Positions 8,673 through 21,188 of a stretch of 21,188 nucleotides of DNA are shown piece by piece. The notes under the pieces were generated by a model, which searched no databases, was not told the origin of the DNA, and saw nothing but the letters and a program-made list of their open reading frames with translations. Source of the stretch: a virus. Position 1 is the first letter of the stretch, and each line of letters begins with the position of its first letter. Both the position numbers and the translations under genes were made by a program. Where the stretch lies: the IMG/VR virus record IMGVR_UViG_3300022924_000094, positions 1 through 21,188 of that record; one strand, given 5' to 3'.

Positions 8673-10219
8673 TGCAGATAGTACCCGCTTTATTTAACCA
8701 GTACGCACAAGGCAACGTCCGGCCGAATGCCTGGGGTCTTCGAGTGTCTTTTGATAAAACATTTGATCCATCTGTGACATTTTTCACACTTAACACTTCA
8801 GTACTGGACGGCGTAGATGTCCTTGGCCCTAGCGATGACAACCCGATCCAGGCCTGGGACTATTACCTCTACAAGGATTACAGCGACCGCATCGTCTCTA
8901 TGTCATGGGATCGTGAGTTATTGTTCCCATACTCAGTAGTGAGCGCTCGCGCGGACTTCGAGGTAAGCAATACGGACGACTACTTCACACCTGCAGGTGG
9001 ATCACCGATTGAAGATTATATACTTCCGAAGCGCCCAGTTCGTTTACTGTCCGGATTCGGAAATATGACAGTGCCGCAGTTCGTGGGACTTACTCAAGGT
9101 ATGCCAGTAATCGGACAACGGCCAAAGACTGCAGTGTTCACCGCACTCGACTTCCTTACCATGATCTATGAGATGAATATTCGAAACACCATCGCCATGC
9201 AGAACGTACGCACTGATGAGGTGCTCGCAAATATCTTCCAGCAGTTTGGTTTGGCGCCGGAGCAATACGACCTCGCAAAGGCACGTAATGTCATTCCATT
9301 CCTGTTCTTCGAACGTGATCAGATCACAGCTGGTGAAGTGATTCGCAAGCTTATGCAGGCCGAGATGGGTATGCTCTGGCTATCTGAGACAGGGATTATC
9401 GTCTTCCGTCCTCGCCTTGAACAACCGACAACTTCGTCATATGTGTTTGATACGAGTTCAATTGTCGACCTTCAAGTATCAAGTGACGACCAGATTATTA
9501 ACCAGGTGAACTTCACCGCAGAACTACGTGAAGTACAGGAATACCAGACCGTCTATCTCAAATCAGAAGGTGGCACCCCAAACGTGGTGCCTGCAAACTC
9601 AACCTATGTATTCCAGGCTGATCTCACTGATCCTTGTCTCACCGTTGAAGAGCCGGTTATTGGAGAGGTGTCTGGAGTATCCTGGTTCACAGCAGAAAAT
9701 TCCAATGGCGATAATATCAGCCTGAATGTTTCAGTTGACTCAGTAGAGTTAAAAACCAATAGCTATGACATTGTGTTTAAAAATGATAATGCTTTCCCAG
9801 TCGATATTGCACAGCTTGAGTTATGGGGACAACCCGCGAAGGTCTATGACACTGTACTTAGAACTATCGAATACCCACCAAGTATTGAGAAGTACGAAAT
9901 AAAGCCGATCCCTATCGACAACAACTTCATCCAAGAAGAGGATCAGATGCAATCGCTTGGACTCACTATCCTTGATGAATATGCAGAGTATGCTTCGATC
10001 CTTGATCTCGAAGTAAAGGGAAACCCAGCGCTTCAGCTCGGCGACATCGTTGAAGTCGATTATAAGCAGTACGACGGACTATATCGCATTATCAAGATTA
10101 GCAACTCACTCCGTGACTTTAAGTTCACTCAAATCATTAAAGTAAAGAGGTACACGCCTCGCGACTGGTTCACGCTAGATCAGTCGGTTCTTAATGGCAC
10201 GGATGTCCTAGCTCCATAA
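8672..10219 (+). CDS. Tail hub / baseplate protein with repeated SVLxGxDVL motif
   Basis: A 515-residue protein, probably the tail-tip hub or tail-associated protein. The ATG overlaps the upstream stop (TAATG). The central region (about 60-260) has alternating strands and helices, with segments such as TAGEVIRKLMQAEMGMLWLSE and DTSSIVDLQVSSDDQIINQV. This pattern is seen in hub proteins of the gp27/late-control type. Near the C-terminus, NPALQLGDIVEVDYKQYDGLYRII resembles the returning strand domain of such hubs. A short motif occurs twice: FTLNTSVLDGVDVLGP at residues 38-53 and FTLDQSVLNGTDVLAP as the last 16 residues. No enzymatic domain is visible. Confidence 0.65.
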   Translation: MQIVPALFNQYAQGNVRPNAWGLRVSFDKTFDPSVTFFTLNTSVLDGVDVLGPSDDNPIQAWDYYLYKDYSDRIVSMSWDRELLFPYSVVSARADFEVSNTDDYFTPAGGSPIEDYILPKRPVRLLSGFGNMTVPQFVGLTQGMPVIGQRPKTAVFTALDFLTMIYEMNIRNTIAMQNVRTDEVLANIFQQFGLAPEQYDLAKARNVIPFLFFERDQITAGEVIRKLMQAEMGMLWLSETGIIVFRPRLEQPTTSSYVFDTSSIVDLQVSSDDQIINQVNFTAELREVQEYQTVYLKSEGGTPNVVPANSTYVFQADLTDPCLTVEEPVIGEVSGVSWFTAENSNGDNISLNVSVDSVELKTNSYDIVFKNDNAFPVDIAQLELWGQPAKVYDTVLRTIEYPPSIEKYEIKPIPIDNNFIQEEDQMQSLGLTILDEYAEYASILDLEVKGNPALQLGDIVEVDYKQYDGLYRIIKISNSLRDFKFTQIIKVKRYTPRDWFTLDQSVLNGTDVLAP

Positions 10220-14667: not shown

Positions 14668-14797
14668 AATAAGCGTAGACCATTTCGTGCATCATGTTGC
14701 AGAGTGCATGAAATGACAGTATAAGAAGAAAGCAATCCGGCCCTGACTGGGGATAAATATACCGCTTCCACTTACTTTGTGGAGGCGCTTTCTTTTT
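14668..14797 (+). ncRNA. Structured 3' end of the late transcript, candidate small RNA
   Basis: A long hairpin (CATTTCGTGCA at 14681-14691, TGCATGAAATG at 14705-14715) has an 11-bp stem with one G-U pair and a 13-base loop. A purine-rich stretch and then the terminator hairpin follow. The wobble pairs in both hairpins are valid only for + strand RNA, supporting folding of this strand. No open reading frame is present. It may be a 3' untranslated element or a processed small RNA. Confidence 0.4.
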
Positions 14798-14801
14798 GTT
14801 T
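14763..14801 (+). terminator. Rho-independent terminator of the late/lysis operon
   Basis: A 9-bp stem CGCTTCCAC/GTGGAGGCG (one G-U pair), loop TTACTTT, followed by CTTTCTTTTTGTTT. It closes the long late transcript from the head and tail genes. The T-run overlaps the upstream flank of the next promoter. Confidence 0.8.
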
Positions 14802-14802
14802 A

Positions 14803-14811
14803 TGCTATTAT
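14803..14811 (+). promoter_or_regulatory. Extended -10 promoter giving a second leaderless mRNA
   Basis: TGcTATTAT is one base off TGnTATAAT. It ends at 14811, so transcription should start about 7 bases on, at 14818, the A of the ATG of the zinc-module gene. No ribosome site lies between. The arrangement is the same as at 10221-10236. Confidence 0.55.
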
Positions 14812-14817
14812 TTTGAC

Positions 14818-15690
14818 ATGAGTAATGCGCCGGACAGCTTAGACCTTTTACTCGACAGATTCAAATCAGATCTTCGAGAGTTTATTGATAGTGCTGTTGC
14901 GGATGAACGCAAAAAGATTCTGGATGACATCCAAAGATATGTTGGAATTCCTAAAAAGGAAACGATCATTCTTCCGGCGCCGTCGAACGATATCCTTATA
15001 CCGATAATTGAAGTCGAAAAACCGAAAGTAGTTTCACTCTCTCCTGGGAAGGCCTGTGGATTCTGTATAAAGCGCGGAGAGCTATGCAAGAGACACGGTG
15101 GCACAGAAGCAGCTAAATATATCCCAGTAAAGAAAGAAGTTGATTCAGATCCACGTCAGCGCTACTGCATCAACTGTCGCAAAGAACCGATCAACCGTAA
15201 TATCTATCGCAGTGATCAATTCTGTTCACAAGTGTGTGGCAACCGATGGGGTGCAGTTAAGTCCTCACGTAAGAAAAAGGGGCTTGAATTATATTCAGAA
15301 GATCCGGTATACGAACCCTCTCCAGATATTAGATGTACCGAGTGCGACAATGACGTCGGCCCTAGAGCAAGGCATGATAATTTCTGCTCAGTATTATGCT
15401 TCAAGAGGCATAACGATATTAAGCGCATTAAAAAACCTGCAGTTATTAAAGATGAACAGAAAGAAGACGAGGCTCTCAGCAACCGCCCTCTGATCGAGTT
15501 CGTAAAAAGAAAGTCCAACACGCACGACTGCGCATTCTGCGGTAAACCTACGACAAAGCTGTACTGTACAGAGCACTGTCGACGCGAGGATGAGTTACTC
15601 TTGAGTCTCAGTTCTAAAAAGAATAAGTCGTACGATGAACTGCTGAAAGAAAATGGCCTCAAGAAACAAAAGATATTCGTCTCAATATAA
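14818..15690 (+). CDS. Protein with four zinc-binding modules
   Basis: A 290-residue protein, alone between a terminator and a noncoding region. The ATG at 14818 is chosen over an in-frame GTG at 14779, which lies inside the terminator stem. Four modules are spaced along it: C80, C83, C90, H93 (ACGFCIKRGELCKRH); C117, C120, C136, C140; C173, C176, C190, C194; and C238, C241, C250, C254. The last three share the pattern CxxC...(F/Y)C[ST]xxC[GFR], seen in treble-clef or zinc-ribbon domains. The N-terminal 45 residues look coiled and the C-terminus is lysine-rich. A DNA- or RNA-binding regulator is plausible, but I recognise no exact family. Confidence 0.65.
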   Translation: MSNAPDSLDLLLDRFKSDLREFIDSAVADERKKILDDIQRYVGIPKKETIILPAPSNDILIPIIEVEKPKVVSLSPGKACGFCIKRGELCKRHGGTEAAKYIPVKKEVDSDPRQRYCINCRKEPINRNIYRSDQFCSQVCGNRWGAVKSSRKKKGLELYSEDPVYEPSPDIRCTECDNDVGPRARHDNFCSVLCFKRHNDIKRIKKPAVIKDEQKEDEALSNRPLIEFVKRKSNTHDCAFCGKPTTKLYCTEHCRREDELLLSLSSKKNKSYDELLKENGLKKQKIFVSI

Positions 15691-15722
15691 AAAGACCCTG
15701 GAATAACCGGGGTCTTTGTTTA
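15691..15722 (+). terminator. Terminator after the zinc-module gene, also usable from the - strand
   Basis: An 11-bp stem AAAGACCCTGG/CCGGGGTCTTT around AATAA starts directly after the stop codon. One pair is G-U on the + strand. On + it is followed by GTTTAT. On - it is followed by TTATATT after the TTT arm, so it could also end - strand transcription coming from 15895. Confidence 0.7.
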
Positions 15723-15895
15723 TAAGTTCTTACCGCACTACCTTAATGATCCGAAGATCGGTCGAAGGGATTGCCTTGCTAGTGCGGTATGCCCTGTGAT
15801 TGCGTACGCCACGCACCAACGAAGTTCTTTCAGAGGATGTAGTGGGTTCTTGCGTTCGTATAAGAGCTAGTATGTTGCAAGGTCGTCCAACGACT
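15691..15895 (-). ncRNA. Candidate - strand small RNA 1
   Basis: The unit runs from the extended -10-like box TGcTACAAT (15910 down to 15902) to the two-way terminator. It contains a perfect 10-bp inverted repeat TACCGCACTA/TAGTGCGGTA (15731-15740 and 15780-15789) and a GTCGT/ACGAC hairpin near its predicted 5' end. A 78-codon frame covers the region but has no ribosome site and would begin upstream of this promoter. Expression is not shown; a structured RNA of about 200 bases is the simplest reading. Confidence 0.3.
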
Positions 15896-15901
15896 ATTTT
15901 T

Positions 15902-15910
15902 ATTGTAGCA
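15902..15910 (-). promoter_or_regulatory. Minus-strand extended -10-like box
   Basis: Read on the - strand this is TGcTACAAT, with the -10 hexamer also used in the early promoters plus the TG extension. Predicted start near 15895. Confidence 0.35.
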
Positions 15911-15923
15911 TATTCATAAAGGA

Positions 15924-15953
15924 GAAAAGCCCCTCGTTTAACGTCCGAGGGGC
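15924..15953 (-). terminator. Minus-strand terminator-like hairpin
   Basis: A perfect 8-bp stem GCCCCTCG/CGAGGGGC (15929-15936, 15946-15953) with a 9-base loop. On the - strand it is followed by TTTTCTCCTTT. On + it is preceded by AAAA and has no T-run after it, so it reads as a - strand terminator. Confidence 0.55.
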
Positions 15954-16100
15954 AAGACGTTTCCATCCTAAGGGAAAGAAAGGAGTACACTATCGCAGTA
16001 CACGCGAGATGCTGAGATCACCTCCTAAGTAGTAGAACCAATTCCGCTCGTAGCGGTCATAATTTGTTGTCCTCTCTGACAGGTGATGCGATCTGCATCT
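15924..16100 (-). ncRNA. Candidate - strand small RNA 2 with mini-ORF and full-length SD
   Basis: The unit runs from the TGaTATAAT box at 16115-16107 to the - strand terminator. The predicted 5' end carries a GATGC/GCATC hairpin (16085-16099). An AGAGGA ribosome site follows and then an 11-codon frame from 16060 to 16025 (MTATSGIGSTT). Its stop TAG opens AGGAGGTGATC (16026-16016), a full-length Shine-Dalgarno. No ATG, GTG or TTG follows at normal spacing. It could be a leader-peptide attenuator or an RNA that binds ribosomes; neither is shown. Confidence 0.35.
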
Positions 16101-16106
16101 ATTCGT

Positions 16107-16115
16107 ATTATATCA
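16107..16115 (-). promoter_or_regulatory. Minus-strand extended -10 promoter
   Basis: On the - strand this is TGaTATAAT, identical to the boxes before the capsid and fibre genes. Predicted start near 16100. Confidence 0.5.
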
Positions 16116-16153
16116 GAACACTCTAAGCGACTCCTTTCCGTGTGTGTAACAGC

Positions 16154-16428
16154 GGGGAGTTATTGTAATGAAGCAATCCCTGAATAAGTCCTAAAGGTAA
16201 CGAATTCGTGGGGTTTAAAAACATAGGACTGTATAGCCGTTATATAGATGTGGTTGAGTACATTATAGAAATCGTCTATTTTTAATATGTTAGTTGTAAA
16301 AGAGCGTGTATTCAGTACAATGCAGGCTTTACGATAGCCTAAAACGTTGAGTCTTATTATCTGGTTGTTTATATAGATGCACCAGAAGCCTAAGATCAGG
16401 GACTCCCCACATCTTGCATAGGAAATTA
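16154..16428 (-). other. Region with long-range nested inverted repeats
   Basis: GGGGAGT (16154-16160) and CCCTGA (16178-16183) are complementary, in nested order, to the adjacent TCAGGG and ACTCCCC at 16396-16408. Inside lie AGTCCT/AGGACT (16187-16192, 16225-16230) and AGGCT/AGCCT around 16324-16340. A transcript of either strand could fold with its ends together. The strand is given as - because TTGCGT-N17-TATAAC on that strand would start near 16428. The base composition is A+T rich and no credible gene is present. It might instead be a replication or regulatory structure. Confidence 0.3.
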
Positions 16429-16463
16429 TCACCTGTTATAATAAAAGGTGATTACGGACGCAA
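16428..16463. promoter_or_regulatory. Face-to-face promoters inside an inverted repeat
   Basis: On +, TGtTATAAT at 16434-16442 is an extended -10. On -, TTGCGT (16463-16458), 17 bases, then TATAAC (16440-16435) is a promoter-like pair. The two -10 boxes share the palindrome TTATAA. A 7-bp inverted repeat ATCACCT/AGGTGAT (16428-16434, 16446-16452) brackets them and would suit a dimeric repressor. Confidence 0.4.
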
Positions 16464-16497
16464 CTATATTAAGAAGCTTTATGAGAGCTTCTTTTAA
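16449..16497 (+). ncRNA. Candidate tiny + strand RNA
   Basis: From the predicted start of TGtTATAAT (about 16449) to the hairpin AAGAAGCT/AGCTTCTT (16471-16478, 16486-16493, loop of 7) followed by TTAAATT. The product would be about 50 bases. It begins with TGATTACGGAC, which is repeated exactly at 16529-16539. It may be an attenuated leader rather than a free RNA. Confidence 0.3.
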
Positions 16498-16500
16498 ATT
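16471..16500 (+). terminator. Terminator-like hairpin
   Basis: A perfect 8-bp stem AAGAAGCT/AGCTTCTT with loop TTATGAG, followed by TTAAATT. The T-run is short, so termination may be partial. Confidence 0.45.
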
Positions 16501-16629
16501 GCACCGGATTATCTTATACCCCAAAGTCTGATTACGGACTTCGGTACTTACTATAATAACCCACGAACCATATAGGTGCCAACACCAACATGCTTATGAC
16601 TGTGGACTTTCTGTGTACAACTTGTCTAT

Positions 16630-16680
16630 ATAAAACAAAAATACCAGATGGGAAGGTGTGTAGCCTAAGTCTGGTATTTT
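16630..16680 (-). terminator. Minus-strand terminator with 11-bp stem
   Basis: AAAATACCAGA/TCTGGTATTTT is perfect over 11 bp with a 21-base loop. The - strand has a long T-rich tail (TTTTTGTTTT) after the stem. On + the tail is only TTTTCATT. Confidence 0.55.
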
Positions 16681-16770
16681 CATTCAGCGCGAGGTTGGAA
16701 TGGTCATCAACGAGTGTGTTCTTCTGCTATAAGTCAGTCAAACAACTAAAAGATAATCACCTCACGCCTT
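16630..16770 (-). ncRNA. Candidate - strand small RNA 3, divergent from recT
   Basis: From the TGcTATAAT box (16785-16777) to an 11-bp terminator hairpin AAAATACCAGA/TCTGGTATTTT (16638-16648, 16670-16680) that on - is followed by TTGTTTTAT. Length about 140 bases. The hairpin loop (GGAAGGTGTG on +, 16651-16660) can pair with the region next to the predicted 5' end (CACGCCTTCC on +, 16763-16772), which suggests a pseudoknot. That pairing has one mismatch in - RNA and one wobble in + RNA, so the strand is not certain. No frame longer than a few codons has a ribosome site. Confidence 0.4.
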
Positions 16771-16776
16771 CCTTGA

Positions 16777-16785
16777 ATTATAGCA
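16777..16785 (-). promoter_or_regulatory. Minus-strand extended -10 promoter facing away from recT
   Basis: On the - strand this is TGcTATAAT, identical to the box before the tail chaperone genes. Predicted start near 16770. It lies just upstream of, and divergent to, the recT promoter at 16802. Confidence 0.5.
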
Positions 16786-16801
16786 TAATCGAAATTCATT
16801 A

Positions 16802-16830
16802 TTGTAATATTCTTCTAGCTGTAGTACAAT
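16802..16830 (+). promoter_or_regulatory. Early promoter of recT
   Basis: TTGTAA, 17 bases, TACAAT. The spacer's 3' part and the -10 (TCTAGCTGTAGTACAAT, 16814-16830) are identical over 17 bases to the promoter at 21142-21158. Transcription should begin near 16837, shortly before AAAGGA and ATG 16859. The shared 17-mer might also be an operator. Confidence 0.65.
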
Positions 16831-16858
16831 AAAAGAGTAAGCGAAAGGAATGGTTACA

Positions 16859-17533
16859 ATGGCAATAAAAACAGAGGAGGACGCTAAAGCTGCGTCTGCA
16901 CAGAAGAAAATAAGTATCTATAAGGATGTAGTGCCACTCACAGTCGGTATGCTTTCTGATAATACCAAGGCAAGTAAAGAGAAAATGATCGCAACGATTC
17001 ACAAGTCGATTCTTGGTCTCAACAAACAAGGACAACTTCGACCGATCAGTGACTTGAAGCTATTTATGGCACAGGCGAGTCAGTACGGTCTCAACCCTTT
17101 TAAGAAAGAAATATACGCCACTTATATGTGGGACCGAGAGAAGGGTGAAATTCTTACTCCTATCGTTTCTATTCATGGGCTTCGTAAGCTTGCCCGCCAA
17201 GGTGGAACATACACGCACACCGGCGCCGCTGATGTTGTGATGAGTGAAGATGGCAAGACTATTATCAGTGCAACCGTTCCAGTCTACGGACAATACGACA
17301 AGAGTACTCCTCCTGTTGAAGTCACACGATACACTGCTATGTTTGATGAGTTTGCCAAAACAAATAAGGAAGGCAACCTCACGAGCACATGGGCAAAGAT
17401 GCCGCGCGTGATGATTATTAAATGTGCCGAGGCGAACGCTATTCGTCAGGGCTTTGATATCTCTGGTATTTACATAGAAGAAGAGATCGCACGAACAAAC
17501 GTTATCGAAGGCGAAGAGGTGACAAGTGAATAG
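16859..17533 (+). CDS. recT: RecT/Bet-family single-strand annealing protein
   Basis: A 224-residue protein that would coat resected DNA ends and anneal complementary strands. The ATG at 16859 is chosen because AAAGGA ends 9 bases upstream; an in-frame ATG at 16850 touches that site. Family features: SDLKLFMAQASQYGLNPFKKEIYATYMWD near residues 65-93 (the conserved 'A...GLNP...EIYA' region in overview), IVSIHGLRKLARQGG, then a strand region, and KMPRVMIIKCAEANAIRQGF near the C-terminus (the 'A..KaeA.AlR..FP' region). It begins the early operon and overlaps the nuclease-motor gene by 8 bases, so the two are probably made together as annealase and resection enzyme. Confidence 0.88.
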   Translation: MAIKTEEDAKAASAQKKISIYKDVVPLTVGMLSDNTKASKEKMIATIHKSILGLNKQGQLRPISDLKLFMAQASQYGLNPFKKEIYATYMWDREKGEILTPIVSIHGLRKLARQGGTYTHTGAADVVMSEDGKTIISATVPVYGQYDKSTPPVEVTRYTAMFDEFAKTNKEGNLTSTWAKMPRVMIIKCAEANAIRQGFDISGIYIEEEIARTNVIEGEEVTSE

Positions 17534-19529
17534 GGTTGATCATTTAAGCTATTCAGCTATCGTCACATTCCTTCGCAACCAAGTAGAGTTCCAAAAAAGG
17601 TACATCGCCCGGGTCTACGATAACTCTAAATCACCGTCTCTCATCGTCGGTACGGCATTTCACAAGGCGATGGAGGTATTTTACCAACCTGGATCAGCAC
17701 AGAGCATCCAGGAGGCTGTTGAGGCTGGTATTGCTGAGATCAACAACGTCAGCGACTTTGAGATCGACTACGGCAAGACAGGAAACCGTGAGAAGATGTT
17801 GAAAGAATATACCTCACTGGTAAACAAATACTTTGAAGAGGCGTTACAGTACGATGTAGTCGACACAGAGAAGCGCATGGAGCACTCGATCAACACAGTT
17901 CCTATGGTTGGAATTATTGACCTCGTGACTCGTGGCGAAACCGGTATGCTTCGACTCAAGGACTGGAAGACTGTTGCCTTCTATTCTTCACCAACAAACG
18001 ATCCAATGGATCCTGAGTTCGTTGAGAATTACAAATATCTGCTTCAAGGTTATATCTACCTGGCCCTCGCAGAAGCAGAATACGGTGAGAAGGTTGAGTC
18101 AGTTGAGTTTATCGAGGTAAAGAAGTCTCTGAACCGCGACGGAACACCACAGACGCGTGGATTTGAATACGATCGTCAATCATTACTAGAGTTTGCTGCG
18201 ATCGCTCACAAGATCATCACGAACGTCTTCTCTTATGTCAACGATGATAATGCCAAGTTCTTCCCGAACCCAAGCGACTACATCAACGGCATGGAATCAA
18301 TGCAGATCGTTTCGAATATGGAAGAAGGATTCGACGAGAGCAAGATTCGCCGCAAGATAAATACTGTGGATAAGTTTGCTCCCAGGAACGTCACGATTGA
18401 TGTCGGTGAAGACACCGGTACGAACGAAGAGATGATCATCAAGAAGTTTATCGAGTTCGGTATTGGTGGAGTGATCGGCAATACTTACGAGGGTGCATCG
18501 GTAATTCGATACACATTCAAGCCTAACCGAGGTGTGTCAATGAGCTCTATTGCCAAGCGTGGTGATGACTTGTCTATCGCTTTGAAGGCGAGATCAGTTC
18601 GTATCGAAGCGCCAATCGCTGGTACTGACTTAATTGGTGTCGAGATCCCGAACCCAGAGCGCCGCATTATCAACCTTGAAGATAAGCACCTGAAACCGGG
18701 AACGACTTTGATTCCGATAGGTGAAGATATTTTCGGTGAAGTTCACTACGGTGACGTGACGAAGATGCCTCACCTCTTGATCGCCGGACAGACTGGATCT
18801 GGTAAGTCGGTTATGTTGAACGTGATTCTTTACAGCCTGACGAACCAACTGAAAGCTTCAGAGCTACAGCTGGTCCTGATCGACCCTAAACAGGTGGAGC
18901 TTGCGTCTTACGAAGGATTGCCGCACTTGATGCGTCCGATCATCACAGAGCCTTTAGAAGCGGTCCAGGCACTCGATGACTTAGTGAAGTTGATGGAGAA
19001 GCGATATACAATCCTGCGCAAGGCTGGTGTCCGTTCGATTGACGATTATAAAGGCAAGATGCCACGAGTGATCGCAGTTGTCGACGAGTTCGCCGACCTG
19101 ATGATGACCGACATGTCTCCAAGCGTTGAGTCGATGGACTACAAGGTGCTGACTGAGAATCTAAGAAATGCACTCTACCAAAGTTCAACCGGTAACGTCA
19201 CACAGGCAATGCTGCGCAGTGCGATTGGTGCGACCGTTAAAAGTACAGCTCCACCAAGCGCCGAGGATTCGATCATTCGTATCAGTCAGAAGGCTCGGGC
19301 AGTTGGTATCCACCTGATCCTCGCAACGCAGCGACCAAGTGCTGATGTAGTTACCGGCCTGATCAAGGCGAACGTGCCAACGAAGATTGCATTCGCCGTA
19401 ACTACGGCAACAAATAGCCGTATCATCCTTGACGAGAGCGGCGCTGAGAAGCTTACGGGCTACGGCGACATGCTTTATCAGGATCCGAGTACACGATCAT
19501 CAGAACGGCTCCAGGGCTTTTATAAATAG
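17526..19529 (+). CDS. RecB/Cas4-type PD-(D/E)XK nuclease fused to FtsK-type DNA translocase motor
   Basis: A 667-residue fusion starting at GTG 17526 (GAGGTG ribosome site). Residues 1 to about 240 are a PD-(D/E)XK nuclease of the RecB/Cas4 kind: LSYSAIVTFLR opening, His46 in GTAFHKAME, Asp132 in GIIDLV, Asp146-Trp-Lys148, and Gln174...Tyr178 (the QxxxY motif). Residues about 300-380 match the FtsK beta domain (VRIEAPIAGTDLIGVEIPN). Residues about 395-667 are the RecA-like motor: Walker A GQTGSGKS (421-428), Walker B VIAVVDEFADL (Asp520, Glu521), LILATQRPS. It lacks the FtsK membrane anchor and the DNA-reading gamma domain. About 55 extra residues (roughly 528-582) lie between Walker B and the QKARAVGIH segment. 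The likely role is to move along and degrade DNA, feeding RecT. No gene split, stop or frameshift is seen at the junction. Confidence 0.9.
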   Translation: MNRVDHLSYSAIVTFLRNQVEFQKRYIARVYDNSKSPSLIVGTAFHKAMEVFYQPGSAQSIQEAVEAGIAEINNVSDFEIDYGKTGNREKMLKEYTSLVNKYFEEALQYDVVDTEKRMEHSINTVPMVGIIDLVTRGETGMLRLKDWKTVAFYSSPTNDPMDPEFVENYKYLLQGYIYLALAEAEYGEKVESVEFIEVKKSLNRDGTPQTRGFEYDRQSLLEFAAIAHKIITNVFSYVNDDNAKFFPNPSDYINGMESMQIVSNMEEGFDESKIRRKINTVDKFAPRNVTIDVGEDTGTNEEMIIKKFIEFGIGGVIGNTYEGASVIRYTFKPNRGVSMSSIAKRGDDLSIALKARSVRIEAPIAGTDLIGVEIPNPERRIINLEDKHLKPGTTLIPIGEDIFGEVHYGDVTKMPHLLIAGQTGSGKSVMLNVILYSLTNQLKASELQLVLIDPKQVELASYEGLPHLMRPIITEPLEAVQALDDLVKLMEKRYTILRKAGVRSIDDYKGKMPRVIAVVDEFADLMMTDMSPSVESMDYKVLTENLRNALYQSSTGNVTQAMLRSAIGATVKSTAPPSAEDSIIRISQKARAVGIHLILATQRPSADVVTGLIKANVPTKIAFAVTTATNSRIILDESGAEKLTGYGDMLYQDPSTRSSERLQGFYK

Positions 19530-20386: not shown

Positions 20387-20658
20387 TCGAGCACAAACAC
20401 AAATGGGAGTTTCTATCCGGCACAAACCTGATATGCAATGCAAAGGATTGCAAGATGGTCACATCACTGGTGGATCTTCTTGAAAACACAGCGAAGGATG
20501 CTGCGCTTAAATCAAAGATTCGTGTATACTGCGACTTACTGATGGCACGTGAACTCAAAAAGGATGGTCATCAAAGAGTGTACGCCTGGGTCATGGCGAA
20601 CACGTCACGCGAAACATTACCTATCGCTTTAAAGAATAAACAGGAGCAATTACTGTGA
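20383..20658 (+). CDS. Small early protein of unknown function
   Basis: A 91-residue basic protein starting in an ATGA overlap with the upstream gene. The N-terminus has His4, His6, Cys18 and Cys23, which could bind zinc; the rest is helical (SLVDLLENTAKDAALKSKI, then a second helix with VYCDLLMARELKK). No family recognised. Support: overlaps on both sides and a coherent frame. Confidence 0.5.
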   Translation: MIEHKHKWEFLSGTNLICNAKDCKMVTSLVDLLENTAKDAALKSKIRVYCDLLMARELKKDGHQRVYAWVMANTSRETLPIALKNKQEQLL

Positions 20659-21114: not shown

Positions 21115-21139
21115 TAAGCAAGATTATGCTTGACTTTTT
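21115..21139 (+). terminator. Weak terminator-like hairpin overlapping a promoter
   Basis: AAGCA/TGCTT around AGATTA is a 5-bp stem followed by GACTTTTT. It overlaps the -35 of the next promoter. Stability is low, so this is tentative. Confidence 0.3.
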
Positions 21140-21158
21140 AGTCTAGCTGTAGTACAAT
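21130..21158 (+). promoter_or_regulatory. Second early promoter at the right edge
   Basis: TTGACT, 17 bases, TACAAT: close to the sigma-70 consensus. The 17-mer TCTAGCTGTAGTACAAT is identical to the recT promoter. Downstream, TAAGGAATGGT at 21171-21181 also resembles recT's AAAGGAATGGT. The next gene probably begins just beyond the right edge. Confidence 0.75.
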
Positions 21159-21188
21159 GATATGTAGACCTAAGGAATGGTCAACAAC

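Follow-up and report, generated by a model that had tools for sequence, protein, structure and literature searches.

A 1159 bp stretch without a gene (15691-16849) in the viral record IMGVR_UViG_3300022924_000094, all 21,188 bp of which constitute the window analysed here, is probably an island of regulatory RNAs with antisense pairing, positioned where the late genes give way to the early ones. Four short RNAs (units 1 to 4) would be transcribed from the minus strand, whilst the plus strand would yield a single mini-RNA of around 49 nt. An antisense RNA ending in a terminator is predicted for unit 1, a conserved segment of which would pair with the region of the ribosome-binding site (RBS) of both recT and a second early operon. 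Unit 2 would be a structured RNA of approximately 430 nt to which the mini-RNA is antisense, with pairing beginning through an 11 nt motif that fits the loop of the first hairpin, in the manner of plasmid replicons under antisense control. Unit 3 seems to be a structured, terminator-ended RNA concealing a strand strongly complementary to 16S rRNA, and unit 4 an additional terminator-ended RNA. The absence of a coding signal, the promoters and terminators, the conservation of units 1 to 3 and of the mini-RNA, and the complementarity are established by the sequence and by comparison with a relative, whilst we infer that the RNAs are transcribed and pair in vivo, and which way each effect would go.

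Phage regulatory RNAs that operate through antisense logic are already known. Within the literature searched, these RNA families, their clustering, the preserved pairing of the mini-RNA with a loop and a possible role as a replication origin appear to be new, and no published report of the island was found, a statement that rests on the literature searches made alone. If correct, the proposal means that a phage lineage known only from metagenomes gives 5% of the record to RNA genes, with two antisense relations at the meeting point of its early and late programmes; it would also add several new RNA families and a concrete pairing between unit 1 and the early leaders.

The gene-free gap and its counterpart in a related phage

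All of the approximately 33 plausible genes in the window lie on the plus strand, in the order ClpP-capsid fusion, tape measure, amidase with a G5 domain, cysteine-cluster protein, RecT and PD-(D/E)XK-FtsK fusion. The island sits where the late and early gene blocks meet, the last gene before it (14779-15690) encoding a protein of unknown family that bears cysteine clusters. The next longest gap in the record is 111 bp, in agreement with the preliminary description of this DNA, which had reported about 1.1 kb lacking a credible gene.

A search of viral contigs with RecT recovered one close relative, IMGVR_UViG_3300023118_000019 (G003; loci L002, L006, L020 and L021), the RecT of which is 85% identical. 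Because its ends carry an exact direct repeat of 127 bp, G003 is probably a complete genome of around 35.7 kb, and looks circular. The region 5' of its recT aligns to the minus strand of the window from 16870 to 16121, and units 1 and 2 and the plus-strand mini-RNA are kept at the matching location. Unit 3 is found at 21640-21838, on the opposite strand and adjoining the tail genes, within a lysis block that is inverted. Unit 4 is present in the window only, G003 lacking a counterpart.

The inverted block, composed of the lysis genes, the cysteine-rich protein and unit 3, occupies about 11.8-16.1 kb of the window and 21.6-27.4 kb of G003, the two being otherwise collinear; because of this inversion, the lysis operon runs in opposite directions in the two phages. 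One breakpoint falls between units 2 and 3. As inverted repeats at the breakpoints do not exceed 10 nt, we do not call the block a switch.

Differences between the window and G003 were counted by codon position in the open reading frames (ORFs) of at least 20 aa in 16099-16870. The longest on the minus strand (16160-16432, 90 aa) has 31, 33 and 34 differences at positions 1, 2 and 3, with indels that break the frame, and an 80 aa ORF on the plus strand has 24, 26 and 23; the control, recT, has 27, 18 and 115 in an intact frame. In all nine ORFs an excess at the third position is lacking and the frame is shifted somewhere, and on these counts hidden protein genes were rejected for 16099-16870. 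Hence the codon-like substitutions named in the preliminary description as contradicting its proposal of a small-RNA cluster or regulatory switch are absent from these ORFs, and with hairpins and terminators that are conserved through compensatory changes the proposal is supported. An 86 aa ORF at 15730-15990 matches no Pfam or PHROGs family, the codon test having covered 16099-16870.

Neither the window nor the pieces of G003 contain a tRNA gene, and the gap is not a tRNA island. No Rfam family reached its gathering score in the window, nor in L006, L020 and L021 of G003 or in L008, a locus found by protein scans; in L007, another such locus, a tRNA was the only match. Permissive scanning of the window gave just six weak matches (E 0.56-4.6), far under the gathering score, and further permissive scans were weak or empty, with no membership of GOLLD or ROOL.

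The preliminary description had also counted at least four promoter-like boxes and four terminator-like hairpins. In a simple scan of 15000-17400 such sites do not exceed chance (four promoter-like sequences against 5.3 in shuffles, four terminator-like against 2.0); however, stronger -10 elements were located by eye and exact search:

16777-16787, minus strand: extended -10 element of unit 1, TATGCTATAAT
16582-16553, minus strand: promoter of unit 2, TTGGCA-18-TATTAT
16104-16115, minus strand: -10 element of unit 3, TGATATAATACG
15902-15912, minus strand: -10 element of unit 4, TATGCTACAAT
16414-16442, plus strand: promoter of the mini-RNA, TTGCAT-17-TATAAT

Terminators were first sought with stems of at least 7 bp and at least four G-C pairs, giving one match per strand; after this result had been seen, the settings were loosened to at least three G-C pairs, with other small changes and the region extended by 20 bp. 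Three were then found on the minus strand (16682-16636, 15953-15929 and 15717-15691; shuffle mean 0.19) and three on the plus strand (15691-15717, 16471-16493 and 16638-16680; shuffle mean 0.15), a number reached on either strand by none of 300 shuffles. The arrangement of four minus-strand units around a short plus-strand one, as first described, matches intervals from promoter to terminator, except that unit 2 probably starts near 16546 rather than 16428 and has no terminator of its own.

The promoter core TAGCTGTAGTACAAT is identical at five starts (16816 and 21144 in the window; 21857, 28143 and 32568 in G003), which suggests one common regulator or sigma use.

The predicted RNAs and their pairing

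The elements relevant to unit 1 are as follows:

16625..16787, minus strand: unit 1 RNA gene; RNA from about 16770 to 16630; conserved in G003
16759-16768 and 16686-16695, minus strand: stem GGCGTGAGGT/ACCTCGCGCT closing the unit 1 hairpin
16682-16636, minus strand: intrinsic terminator of unit 1, with a 13 bp stem
16697..16710, minus strand: antisense segment TTGATGACCATTCC (G003 TTGTTGACCATTCC)
16845..16856, plus strand: RBS region of recT, AAGGAATGGTTA; candidate unit 1 target
21130..21188, plus strand: second early promoter TTGACT-17-TACAAT and leader, cut by the end of the window; candidate unit 1 target
21172-21187, plus strand: leader segment AAGGAATGGTCAACAA; candidate unit 1 target

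At the level of its sequence, unit 1 has the make-up of a short RNA with its own promoter and terminator, the transcription of which is predicted (fold z -5.0). The terminator stem has three double changes relative to G003 and no broken pair (P 0.0004 under random substitutions). Its best-conserved stretch, TTGNTGACCATTCCANCCTCRCGCT, contains a partly single-stranded segment, the predicted mean unpaired probability of GACCATTCC being 0.63 in the window and 0.72 in G003. In G003, TTGTTGACCATTCC is an exact 14 nt complement of GGAATGGTCAACAA, the longest that unit 1 has in the 35.8 kb, followed by one of 11 nt; this target lies 3' of the promoter TTGACT-17-TACAAT, in the 5' region of the second early transcript. 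The second early promoter and leader in the window are 94.8% identical over 58 nt to 32554-32611 of G003, compared with 72% for the block holding recT, and the unit 1 of the window matches its second leader with one mismatch in 15. With the recT RBS, GGAATGGTTA, it can form ten pairs, one of them G-U. When set against shuffles, the duplex energies (23/1000 for the second leader of G003, 30/1000 for that of the window and 5/1000 for recT in the window) appear to back three of the four target pairs modestly. Since unit 1 would pair with the ribosome-binding region of the early transcripts, it should lower their translation.

In G003 the second early leader (L006:10728-11080) is a noncoding, strongly folded stretch of around 360 nt (fold z -6.65) preceding the first gene, with two long hairpins and no match in Rfam; the candidate target for unit 1 lies where this leader begins.

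A long RNA with a short antisense RNA over its 5' part, namely unit 2 and the mini-RNA, is predicted in both phages:

16120..16582, minus strand: unit 2 RNA gene; structured RNA from about 16546 to 16120, approximately 430 nt; no terminator of its own seen
16408-16154, minus strand: unit 2 closing stem GGGGAGT/ACTCCCC
16529..16539, minus strand: loop GTCCGTAATCA (G003 GTCCGTATTCA) in the first unit 2 hairpin
16414..16497, plus strand: mini-RNA gene; RNA from about 16449 to 16497 (approximately 49 nt), terminator hairpin 16471-16493; antisense to unit 2
16449..16459, plus strand: 11 nt mini-RNA motif TGATTACGGAC (G003 TGAATACGGAC); complement of the loop in the unit 2 hairpin
16428..16452, no strand assigned: palindrome ATCACCTGTTATAATAAAAGGTGAT over the -10 of the plus-strand promoter; possible operator

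Unit 2 has a fold z of -3.4. Its closing stem is unchanged between the phages, and hence uninformative; the helix GTCTTA/TAAGAC has three double changes relative to G003 (P 0.004), and TAGGCT/AGCCTG gives a P of 0.03, the helices tested having been chosen after both sequences were viewed. Over all helices, unit 2 has 13 double-compensated pairs against 6.3 expected in a substitution null (31/2000). The same mini-RNA promoter, TTGCAT-17-TATAAT, is found in G003 (27752-27828), and in both phages a hairpin and a run of T follow around 30 nt later; the terminator AGAAGCT/AGCTTCT is AAAGGCT/AGCCTTT in G003, two double changes (P 0.01). The motif TGATTACGGAC recurs 80 bp away, where the minus strand is the loop of the first hairpin of unit 2. 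The change to TGAATACGGAC in G003 affects both copies identically, and mini-RNA and loop remain complementary, the duplex having an energy of about -18 kcal/mol in both phages; the cross-phage pairs reach -18.2 and -16.3 kcal/mol via other contacts. Chance, or conversion between the repeats, may alternatively account for the retained complementarity. Neither this antisense relation nor that of unit 1 with the early leaders figured in the preliminary description.

The remaining units lie closest to the late genes:

15922..16115, minus strand: unit 3 RNA gene; RNA from about 16100 to 15925, terminator 15953-15929; conserved in G003
16015..16027, minus strand: unit 3 segment TAGGAGGTGATCT, invariant; complementary to the tail of 16S rRNA; 3' side of the basal stem
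15690..15912, minus strand: unit 4 RNA gene; RNA from about 15895 to 15690; terminator 15717-15691 common with the converging plus-strand late operon

The predicted fold of unit 3 (fold z -2.0 in the window, -3.2 in G003) is alike in both phages, comprising a long basal stem, a CGCTACGAGCG hairpin, a downstream hairpin and the terminator. The CGCTACGAGCG hairpin is conserved with one compensated pair, the downstream hairpin differs in sequence, and a possible pairing between ACGTC and the terminator loop is compensated in G003. Within TAGGAGGTGATCT, the 11 nt AGGAGGTGATC form the longest complement to the 16S tail in either genome (the next being 8 nt in the window and 10 nt in G003), and no start codon follows TAGGAGGTGATCT at a normal distance in the window or G003. 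We have not adopted an anti-ribosome decoy as the main role of unit 3, because both predicted folds leave little of the 16S-complementary strand unpaired (unpaired probability 0.19 and 0.01). Such a conserved strand without a start codon raises the question of whether phage RNAs act directly on the ribosome.

Three relatives of the genome with the L008 prophage (L025, L026 and L028) have GGATTACCTCC instead of GGATCACCTCC at the 3' end of 16S rRNA; a GGATTACCTCC tail would still pair with the unit 3 strand through a single wobble. The sequence AGGRUGGAAACG, which we take to be a T-box motif, lies 5' of the unit 3 terminator; a T-box model gave no match at E values up to 5 or 10, and unit 3 was rejected as a T-box riboswitch. 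Unit 4 contains a perfect 10 bp hairpin, TACCGCACTA/TAGTGCGGTA, and has a fold z of -2.1, its backing being limited to promoter, terminator and fold.

Objections and alternative explanations

Several results weigh against an island of RNAs with antisense pairing. Covariation is modest, there being only two homologous sequences: the double-compensated pairs of units 1 and 3 are not above the substitution null (1155/2000 and 543/2000), and one-sided changes in the single-sequence fold of unit 2 keep pairing in 9 of 44 cases, less than the background of 163 in 519, so that the global window fold of unit 2 is not supported. As to targets, the exact match of unit 1 to the second leader of the window is just 10 nt, plus 4 past a mismatch, and it also has an 11 nt match within a gene at 20564. 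The pairing of recT with unit 1 in G003 does not surpass that of shuffles (258/1000). Ranked by raw duplex energy, the G003 targets come only 67th and 197th of 7111 stretches; in the window, of 4190, recT ranks 71st and the second leader, which is truncated by the end of the window, 3391st.

The plasmid ColE1 has a long structured RNA II and, over its 5' part, a short RNA I from the opposite strand, with loop complementarity between the two, and RNA I has three hairpins. The predicted layout of unit 2 and the mini-RNA is similar, loop complementarity included, but the mini-RNA, about 49 nt long, has a single hairpin rather than three, no sequence relation is known and priming here is hypothetical. 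An RNA-controlled replication origin, in which unit 2 would be the primer or initiator RNA and the mini-RNA its antisense brake, is a tentative possibility. No replication initiator, helicase or ParA is named in the 31 of 56 ORFs scanned (28 PHROGs, 20 Pfam) of the probably complete G003, and no integrase domain was found in its whole record. The detrended cumulative GC skew of G003 has its minimum at 27904, between units 1 and 2, and its maximum at 8947, between terminase and portal, roughly opposite. Third-position GC skew in its plus-strand genes differs by arc (-0.03 vs -0.20, 2/5000), which is what replication from the island would give, and a difference is also seen between early and head/tail genes of the window (+0.02 vs -0.14, 76/5000). 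Against this, the arcs were picked after the skew curve had been seen and are confounded with gene class; the skew may be explained by the class and strand of the genes, the minus-strand lysis block ending there, and in the window the skew is already rising from about 13 kb. An unknown initiator is also possible, given that 25 of the 56 ORFs were outside the scan and that few of the 31 within it could be assigned to a family of known function. There is no enrichment of DnaA-box-like sites, nor of the exact motif TTWTNCACA in the window, the site of note being:

16612..16620, minus strand: DnaA-box-like TTGTACACA, in the interval separating unit 1 from unit 2; kept in G003 at 27941-27949

There is a precedent in the cluster A mycobacteriophages Alma, LadyBird and RedRock, for the RNA-based prophage origins of which replication has been shown (PMC7157519). 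These origins resemble the region in being a noncoding phage segment of around 400-500 bp, transcribed (by prediction in the island) and antiparallel to its neighbour, in phages with no recognised initiator. In contrast to the island, they adjoin parABS, ParA being unnamed in the G003 scans; the island differs further in its predicted antisense brake inside the RNA. An origin of this type would extend RNA-based phage replication beyond mycobacteriophages. A fuller version is doubtful: an RNA-run replicon with unit 2 as initiator and the mini-RNA as brake through loop pairing, in which a third RNA would couple early (recT) expression to that control by antisense pairing and a fourth would present its masked 16S-complementary strand to act on the ribosome.

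Unit 2 might instead be a long 5' leader of the lysis operon, acting in attenuation or antitermination as its position in G003 would allow, and detached in the window by the inversion. In G003 no more than about 40 bp separates the start of the minus-strand lysis genes from the end of unit 2, itself without a terminator, but a TATAAT-like -10 intervenes between the two, and the window keeps unit 2 though no minus-strand gene lies downstream, which makes this explanation distinctly improbable. That the conserved blocks work as DNA, whether as operators, a packaging or recombination site or origin iterons, with the RNAs incidental, is unlikely: the palindrome ATCACCTGTTATAATAAAAGGTGAT covering the plus-strand promoter, the motif TAGCTGTAGTACAAT common to two window and three G003 sites and the DnaA-like site TTGTACACA would fit, but terminators are paired with promoters and carry compensatory changes, and there is complementarity to the early leaders. 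A long structured RNA accompanied by a short antisense one is likewise the layout of a type I toxin-antitoxin system, unit 2 being the structured toxin mRNA and the mini-RNA the antitoxin; this is very improbable, as no ORF in unit 2 of at least 20 aa, the lengths to which the test was limited, has a frame preserved from one phage to the other or a codon bias in their differences.

If the gap is instead a regulatory-RNA island, its units find partial parallels in other phages. Unit 1 recalls c4 of P1/P7 and sar of P22, short phage RNAs that complement the translation start region of a phage mRNA (PMC12197685). It too would complement a translation start region, but its targets are early/recombination operons, no antirepressor is seen, and its pairing is predicted from sequence. 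Like lambda OOP RNA (PMC12197685), unit 1 is short, comes from the early region and would be transcribed against early genes; unlike OOP, it is only in part cis-antisense to the targets. Large structured phage RNAs of unknown role, often near tRNA genes, are exemplified by GOLLD and ROOL (PMC12286853). The island resembles them in its structured phage RNAs of unknown role, and L007 has a tRNA-Gly at its place, but its RNAs have no Rfam match, are much shorter and form several units.

Distribution and neighbouring genes

Besides L002 and L006, which belong to one contig (G003), protein scans recovered L003, L004, L007, L008 and L009. None of these five has a BLAST match to the island longer than 16 nt, models R1 and R2 matched none of them except for weak matches in L009, and searches for units 1 and 2 in the L007, L008 and L009 genomes or records came back empty. 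A scan with the 14779-15690 protein found no relative. Beyond G003, pattern scans of viral contigs gave eight loci (L012-L019) that were dropped on reading as chance or simple repeats. A model search for unit 3 found none in 392 genomes of the class of G001; a match to the core of unit 2 (L022, E 1e-4) and one to unit 1 (L023, E 7e-4), both in a host gene context, were rejected as chance for that number of genomes. Phage and plasmid collections yielded one weak 41 nt match or none.

L007 represents a third phage with a related recT and FtsK fusion, its tRNA-Gly gene (766-841) lying 5' of recT where the island would be. Genome sizes among relatives of the genome holding the L008 prophage are 0.6-1.6 Mb, which hints at a possible host of Patescibacteria type for the window phage. 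Two gene fusions are seen in the window itself: a single ORF at 989-2905 encodes both a ClpP-type head maturation protease and the major capsid protein, and at 17526-19529, directly 3' of recT, a PD-(D/E)XK nuclease is fused to an FtsK/SpoIIIE motor.

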